64,000 nt of DNA, taken from Edaphobacter sp. 12200R-103. Lineage in GTDB: Bacteria; Acidobacteriota; Terriglobia; Terriglobales; Acidobacteriaceae. Position numbers and translations under genes: made by a program. The DNA lies in assembly GCF_010093025.1 (NCBI RefSeq), contig NZ_CP048114.1, positions 2,170,001 to 2,234,000 on the forward strand, given 5' to 3'. The notes beneath the pieces are model-generated. The model was not told the origin of the DNA. It ran no database searches and saw only the letters and a list, made by a program, of their open reading frames with translations. Of the stretch, positions 13,676 through 43,146 are shown in pieces (the stretch's first letter is position 1; each line of letters starts with the position of its first letter).

Positions 13676-13923
13676 ACCTACACCTCAAATCCTTTGGAGG
13701 CAGGCCGAACCGCAGCTCAGCCCAACCCCAATCATTTTCCCCGAAGCAAGCGCCGAATGTCACTCAAAACGCCATGCTCCGGCCTGGAGGCAGAACTCCG
13801 CCCTCATCATCATCTACCGGAAAGGTAAGCAGAACAATAGCTGGAAGGAATCATGCCCGGGCGCTGTCTTTGGAATCTGCGCTGGGGATCAGAGCCTCCA
13901 TCTTTGCGGAGACTTAAAAAAAT

Positions 13924-14020
13924 GTACCGGGCGACCTACTGCGCCCGTAATGACCCGTTACCGTTGCTTCCTTCCGGACCTGGCGGAGTTGGCGGGATTA
14001 CGTCGCGTAGGACCCGGCAC
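13924..14020 (-). ncRNA. ffs: Signal recognition particle RNA, small bacterial type (4.5S-like)
   Basis: The minus strand holds the conserved apical domain AGGTCCGGAAGGAAGCAACGG, the SRP54 (Ffh) binding region with the GGAA tetraloop. The outer ends pair: GTGCCGGG at the 5' end against CCCGGTAC at the 3' end. About 97 nucleotides is the size of the small SRP RNA lacking an Alu domain. A run of seven U residues (13916-13922) follows the closing stem and should end transcription. A promoter lies just upstream. The RNA joins Ffh and FtsY (encoded at 32675) in co-translational membrane targeting. Exact ends are estimated from the closing stem. Confidence 0.93.
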
Positions 14021-42936: not shown

Positions 42937-42965
42937 TTGACAGTGAATTTTCGTAAATCTATACC
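42937..42965 (+). promoter_or_regulatory. Strong sigma70-type promoter for the Lys/Ala peptide
   Basis: TTGACA (42937-42942) and TATACC (42960-42965) are separated by exactly 17 bases, after an AT-rich, T-rich stretch. It is the best promoter match in the window. The leader to the ATG at 43027 would be about 55 bases. Confidence 0.75.
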
Positions 42966-43026
42966 TTCGTTAGCTGCAATGAAGTGTGTTGCAGGTTTAT
43001 GTCTAATCACTAGGGAGAATAGGCAA

Positions 43027-43098
43027 ATGGCAACGAAGAAGGCAGCAAAAAAAGCACCGGCCAAAAAGGCAACCAAGAAGGCCGCGAAGAAGAAGTAA
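43027..43098 (+). CDS. 23-residue Lys/Ala-rich peptide (histone H1-tail-like)
   Basis: A 23-residue product contains 11 Lys, 8 Ala, 2 Thr, 1 Pro and the initial Met, arranged as KK doublets separated by one or two small residues. The pattern is that of H1/HC1-type lysine-rich tails that bind nucleic acids. It is too short to hold a folded domain. The ATG follows ACTAGGGAGAATAGGC, and the gene has its own strong promoter (42937) and a perfect terminator (43116-43146). That makes it a complete monocistronic unit. Function is inferred only from composition: DNA or RNA binding, or charge neutralisation. A longer in-frame ORF from 42856 would include the promoter and is unlikely. Confidence 0.75.
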   Translation: MATKKAAKKAPAKKATKKAAKKK

Positions 43099-43115
43099 AT
43101 CGGCAACAGGCAAAC

Positions 43116-43146
43116 AAAAGGGGGACGCTAAAAGCGTCCCCCTTTT
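43116..43146 (+). terminator. Perfect 14-bp terminator after the Lys/Ala peptide
   Basis: AAAAGGGGGACGCT and AGCGTCCCCCTTTT enclose the loop AAA; TTTT ends the stem. The minus-strand version also ends in TTTTG, so it can serve the coiled-coil membrane gene that stops at 43166. Confidence 0.88.

Follow-up and report, generated by a model that had tools for sequence, protein, structure and literature searches.

The closest described systems include SgrS/SgrT, VcdRP and other dual-function small RNAs, which are short, autonomous and contain a small ORF. According to PMC8672173, the part of SgrST that base-pairs is conserved, and only a subset of species has the sgrT ORF. By analogy, a conserved RNA whose small ORF is retained in only some of the species sharing it has a precedent in SgrST. 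The unit considered here, located in a window of 64,000 nucleotides (the whole stretch of DNA that was analyzed), follows the same general plan. It differs from SgrS/SgrT and VcdRP in that the encoded polycation consists almost purely of Lys and Ala, in the GGCAA repeats of its ORF-less forms, and in that its RNA role and any pairing partner are putative.

Concerning the peptide, the DUF6496 proteins (PF20106), encoded elsewhere in these genomes, have in common with it a MATKKAAKK-type start and a Lys/Ala arm, but the mini-protein is devoid of the DUF6496 domain. The histone-H1-like tail of AlgP is Lys/Ala-rich, disordered and polycationic, as described in PMC9239181. The mini-protein resembles tails of this type by composition alone; unlike them, it stands on its own as 12–32 residues, with no folded domain and with its own RNA. 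No Pfam family matched the window peptide, and a PDB search gave no match either. In the Rfam search of the window, the unit matched no family at the gathering score, and neither did the loci L001, L031, L032 and L033, for which a relaxed threshold gave only implausible sub-threshold matches. The sole match in the window at the gathering score was the bacterial small SRP RNA (RF00169, 70.8 bits, 13922–14019, − strand). The literature search, with most subscription papers outside its reach, found no report of an RNA of this kind in Acidobacteria, and passages of PMC5521070 and PMC7074687 yielded nothing on the unit.

Parts of the unit and conservation within the genus

The sequence-only reading had proposed a promoter with 17-base spacing, a GGGAG site, an ORF and a 14-bp terminator at this locus. 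All of them were read in their places, with the reservation that the −10 element TATACC matches the consensus at only 4 of 6 positions. The features are as follows:

42937..42965, + strand: sigma-70-type promoter, with TTGACA (42937–42942), a 17-base spacer and TATACC (42960–42965), read from the sequence
42970..43146, + strand: expected transcript of about 177 nt, drawn from the promoter and the terminator, with a putative start
42974..42994, + strand: leader hairpin H1 (CTGCAA/TTGCAG), from covariation in alignment A2 (81 of the 106 units then collected)
43012..43022, + strand: AGGGAGAATAG block, a putative ribosome-binding site, also retained by ORF-less relatives, with GGGAG at 43013–43017
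43027..43098, + strand: ORF MATKKAAKKAPAKKATKKAAKKK, from ATG at 43027 to TAA at 43098, 23 amino acids, from codon-position constraint and in-frame homologues in 30 of 30 loci
43102..43114, + strand: GGCAACAGGCAAA, 3′ of the stop codon, with GGCAA, a motif found repeatedly in ORF-less relatives, from sequence, alignment and motif counts
43116..43146, + strand: terminator hairpin, facing a convergent coiled-coil gene, read from the sequence and retained in 30 aligned loci

The terminator is a perfect 14-bp stem (AAAAGGGGGACGCT/AGCGTCCCCCTTTT) closed by the loop AAA (43116–43146), and 11 of the 23 residues of the peptide are Lys. A consensus scan of the window called neither the promoter, the scan demanding T at position 6 of the −10 element, nor the terminator, in which the T run lies inside the stem and GATTTG follows downstream. 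Other genera have a second leader hairpin, H2; in the window it is degenerate, and the sequence does not pair there.

When 61 genomes were searched at the DNA level, 30 of the 37 belonging to the same genus showed strong matches (E ≤ 3e-29). In all 30 aligned loci the order of the parts was identical, comprising promoter, leader, AGGGAGAA, an in-frame MA(T/V)KKAA... ORF of 18–26 residues and the terminator hairpin. The pattern TTGACA-N15-18-TATANCTTCGTTAG was found as a single copy in each of 31 of the 61 genomes, all of them of the genus of the window, and the reversed pattern, run as a control, had 0 matches in the 61 genomes. A chance origin of the unit is excluded because of this conservation across same-genus genomes. 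At the level of sequence, the proposal of an autonomous, conserved transcription unit is supported.

The remaining seven same-genus genomes comprised three with ORF-less units (G006, G020 and G031), one with a unit of diverged ORF (G027), one with a unit cut by a contig end (G035), one left unclassed (G022) and one without the unit (G005), so the unit is non-essential in the latter. At the corresponding locus of G005 (L071), the thiolase and coiled-coil genes adjoin, separated by no more than a GGGGTGACGC hairpin, and the unit is absent.

As a check, the sequence-only reading had named thiolase and coiled-coil genes as neighbors to look for in other genomes. In 61 of 86 loci a divergent thiolase gene lies at a distance of up to about 2 kb, an indication that the loci are positional orthologues; the coiled-coil neighbor was present in 37 of the 86 loci, all of the genus of the window. 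On the downstream side, a short Lys-rich ORF placed immediately 5′ of a terminator hairpin could recall a leader-peptide attenuator, in which translation of the lysine codons would control the terminator and a downstream gene. In several genera there is indeed a same-strand gene downstream of the unit, putatively 16S rRNA methyltransferase-like. However, the next gene is convergent in the window, and the largest downstream reading frame, assigned by a crude longest-frame rule, was on the + strand in 48 and on the − strand in 48 of 96 loci. From this even split the unit looks autonomous, and attenuation is highly improbable.

Distribution of the unit and selection on the peptide

A first leader model, sequence-only and built from 35 loci, matched 249 of 300 same-family genomes, belonging to 70 of 79 sampled genera, nearly always once per genome. 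A sample of the order (253 of 298 genomes matched) adds little, there being only family members among the matches listed. The second model (R2), built from 81 loci, was also sequence-only, because RNAalifold by itself predicted no pairs on A2. It matched 110 of 399 genomes of the class, including four outside the family, all of them weak (E 3.6e-4 to 3.4e-3). These four loci have a similar layout with a Lys-rich mini-ORF, e.g. MKNATKKAAKKAPAKKATKKAAAKKA and MPTKKPAKKAAKKPAAKKKTSKKKK, and that encoding MPTKKPAKKAAKKPAAKKKTSKKKK (L310) has GGAG as the site instead of GGGAG.

A pattern scan of named genomes, biased toward well-kept leaders, matched at least 117 stretches, 114 of which carried a Lys-rich ORF; of the others, L192 had no such ORF and L269 had masked bases inside it. 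Among the 80 matches listed by title, all had Acidobacteria-type names except one Janthinobacterium. In the latter, L216, on a contig of Janthinobacterium lividum PAMC 25724, the leader pattern is matched but the frame after it is not Lys-rich, and the match is probably due to chance. Since the units were located through the leader, ORF-bearing or ORF-less forms devoid of it escape detection. With this scope, the unit can be described as what appears to be a stand-alone mini-gene of Acidobacteriaceae and probably also of the wider class. It is a gene of 12–32 codons, with its leader in most of the sampled genera of one soil family, that length-limited gene finders would skip, as anticipated and as its length supports.

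Altogether, 126 units were read, in sets of 86, 20 and 20: 95 encode a Lys/Ala peptide of 12–32 residues (75, 4 and 16 in the respective sets), 30 are ORF-less (10, 16 and 4), and one, L035, ends within the ORF at a contig end and was counted apart. Five units were classed from the DNA directly, L323 and L325 as coding, and L316, L319 and L326 as being without a Lys/Ala ORF. In the set of 86, the 75 complete ORFs have an average composition of 49% Lys and 32% Ala. Heterozygosity at codon positions 1, 2 and 3 was 0.056, 0.056 and 0.367 in the first eight codons of 31 ORFs of the genus, and 0.121, 0.082 and 0.320 in the first six codons of all 75 ORFs; in the genus alignment, the length differences between ORFs amount to whole codons. 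Judged from this pattern, in which positions 1 and 2 are constrained and position 3 is free, the peptide is under selection. The proposal of a real Lys/Ala mini-protein gains support from both the codon-position constraint and the whole-codon length changes, and in these two features a selected small protein, such as a dual-function small RNA encodes, is found here.

The same data bear on the possibility that the unit is purely a small RNA in which the ORF is incidental. The 30 ORF-less units out of 126 would fit it, but a free third position next to constrained first and second ones, changes of length by whole codons and a Lys/Ala composition maintained in 95 of the 126 units are hardly to be expected of an incidental frame, and we consider this explanation very unlikely.

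The codon usage of the ORFs is peculiar in that Ala is encoded by GCA in 61% of 506 Ala codons of the units versus 17% of 1624 in genes of the window. The idea that this excess reflects a motif of the RNA (AAG-GCA) superimposed on the coding sequence was rejected, because DUF6496-type Lys/Ala arms of the same genomes use GCA alike: counting from codon 3 on, 58 of 128 in 13 such arms, as compared with 243 of 478 in the ORFs of 89 units (p 0.28), with nine entries of doubtful start or no Lys/Ala ORF left out of the count. In three proteins of the acidic/Lys-Ala kind the GCA share was 26–28%. Proteins with a MATKKA-type Lys/Ala arm were seen at L389, L397–L399, L401–L405, L407, L408, L412 and L416. 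One protein of each type was scanned for domains, the Lys/Ala-armed L398 showing DUF6496 and L394, of another type, DUF6321. A further kind of protein, whose N-terminal half is strongly acidic and whose C-terminal tail is long and rich in Lys/Ala, is encoded at L036 (G000:C1:2830000-2832500), L037 and L038, and is present in at least three genomes of the genus.

Relatives without the reading frame

The ORF-less units are all 12 units of g48, all 11 of g80, the one unit of g60 that was read, and six of the genus of the window (G006, G020, G031, G355, G358 and G366); as many of the g48 and g80 loci were picked deliberately, 30 of 126 is not a rate. These units retain the promoter, the leader, GGGAG and the terminator. 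According to the sequence-only reading, loss of the ORF with promoter and terminator kept would point away from a mini-protein and to a small RNA. Precisely this arrangement was seen in those 30 units, but in others the ORF is under coding selection. With ORF loss in some units and coding selection in others, each of the two descriptions is valid, and, as far as sequence comparison can tell, the transcript seems to be bifunctional.

Conservation of the core (from GGGAG to the terminator) in the ORF-less units depends on the lineage. In g80, the mean pairwise identity of the core was 0.896 (55 pairs) versus 0.381 upstream and 0.433 downstream; in g48 it was 0.605 versus 0.462 and 0.376 in the flanks; and in the six units of the genus of the window it was 0.444, little above the flanks (0.368 and 0.379).

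On a Rho tree of 53 rows, the state of the unit, coding or ORF-less, changes at least six times (52 rows, with a weakly supported backbone). A single clade of 17 ORF-less rows was rejected (p-AU 0.00346) in a test of 52 rows run after the tree had been inspected, in which G104 and G356, having no unit found and so no state, were retained among the other rows. G358 was left out of this test because its Rho adjoins that of G015 and a second partial Rho match was present. Its ORF-less unit, L332 (G358:C242), shares the contig with the Rho placed beside that of G015, the second partial Rho lying in the same genome, and contamination, transfer or mis-binning is possible there. Loss of the ORF would be a simpler direction of change than gain, because coding units occupy the deepest rows and the outgroups.

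Relocation of the ORF to another place of the genome was also considered and rejected: a start pattern found no Lys/Ala mini-ORF in 19 ORF-less genomes, and gave the known mini-ORF in six of six ORF-bearing controls. In G304 it returned one frame of 22 residues, not Lys/Ala-rich. The pattern requires GGNG and MA..KKA, and hence is not exhaustive. Coding and noncoding versions of one RNA form a natural series, comparison of which would test the conversion between mRNA and regulatory RNA.

Leader structure, GGCAA motifs and possible mechanism

In A2, the two leader hairpins show covariation, with 87.3% of the cells paired and a score of 0.255, versus 0.116 for shuffled and at most 0.060 for slid controls; as the two helices were written from one sequence (L111), the slid control favors them, and the shuffles, together with the changes on both sides of the stems, are the firmer evidence. 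TTGAC and TATAC are invariant in the 81 aligned loci, in part by selection of the loci, which were found by the leader model. GGGAG occupies the same position in 81 of 81 rows, including ORF-less ones, again partly by construction, since the rows were cut at the first GGGAG.

The cores of the ORF-less units are rich in GGCAA, with 71 copies versus 4.4 expected and presence in 26 of 26 cores; these counts treat related sequences as separate, and hence no p-value is given. In the 30 ORF-less RNAs, GGCAA was predicted to be unpaired to a greater extent (0.68) than other positions of the core (0.51). Several copies fall in predicted hairpin loops with differing stems, such as GCG-CAGGCAAA-CGC in g80, GCGGU-GGCAAAG-ACCGC in g48 and CGCUUCG-AAGGCAAA-CGAAGCG in G006. 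Moreover, according to the alignment, AGGCAA occurs 3′ of the ORF in nearly all the coding units of the genus. The GGCAA loops provide a concrete lead toward an RNA-binding partner.

Taking everything together, the preferred interpretation, to which we give a probability of roughly 0.55, is that the unit is the mRNA for a Lys/Ala polycation and that its RNA most likely also has a role of its own. Another explanation would be a mini-gene for the peptide only, the RNA of the window serving simply as an mRNA whose leader is structured, and the ORF-less forms being a later, lineage-specific reuse of the promoter-terminator cassette. It agrees with the coding selection on the ORF, with the coding character of all four units outside the family, with the low core conservation in the ORF-less units of the genus of the window and with a GCA bias shared with the control arms. 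It does not account well for the retention of GGGAG and leader in ORF-less units of different lineages, nor for the occurrence of GGCAA in every ORF-less core examined and, within the genus, downstream of the ORF in coding units. We consider it less likely than the preferred interpretation.

Under the preferred interpretation, we infer transcription and translation of the unit, as well as partners for the peptide and for GGCAA. The sigma-70-type promoter would give rise to a short RNA (about 177 nt in the window), beginning near the TTAGCTGC block with a hairpin and ending at the hairpin terminator. The exposed GGGAG site would allow translation into a disordered Lys/Ala polycation of 12–32 residues (23 in the window). 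The peptide would most likely work through its charge, with nucleic acid or ribosomes as its object, in the manner of a detached arm of the histone-H1 or DUF6496 type, as its composition and the AlgP-type tails described in PMC9239181 suggest. A second role, of the RNA itself, is most likely, because ORF-less relatives keep the rest of the unit under selection; the GGCAA motifs would serve either to bind a protein or for pairing with RNAs that carry UUGCC. In the organism of the window itself, this RNA role is less certain.

CsrB/RsmZ-type sponge RNAs, which are associated with CsrA, carry repeats of the short motif GGA. The unit appears similar to them in having a repeated short motif in predicted hairpin loops. 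Membership in this group was rejected: the motif here is GGCAA instead of GGA, and the search for the CsrA family gave 0 matches in the genome of the window and was positive in three control genomes. A broader proposal, rather unlikely in our opinion, is that of a class-wide RNA that switches repeatedly between coding and noncoding states, in which GGCAA loops would titrate an RNA-binding protein in a CsrB-like manner without CsrA, some lineages dropping the peptide and keeping the RNA. With a 13-mer complementary to the g80 core, no base-pairing target was found: it matched the unit itself in eight of eight g80 genomes and six scattered sites sharing no gene. Hfq is encoded in the genome of the window.
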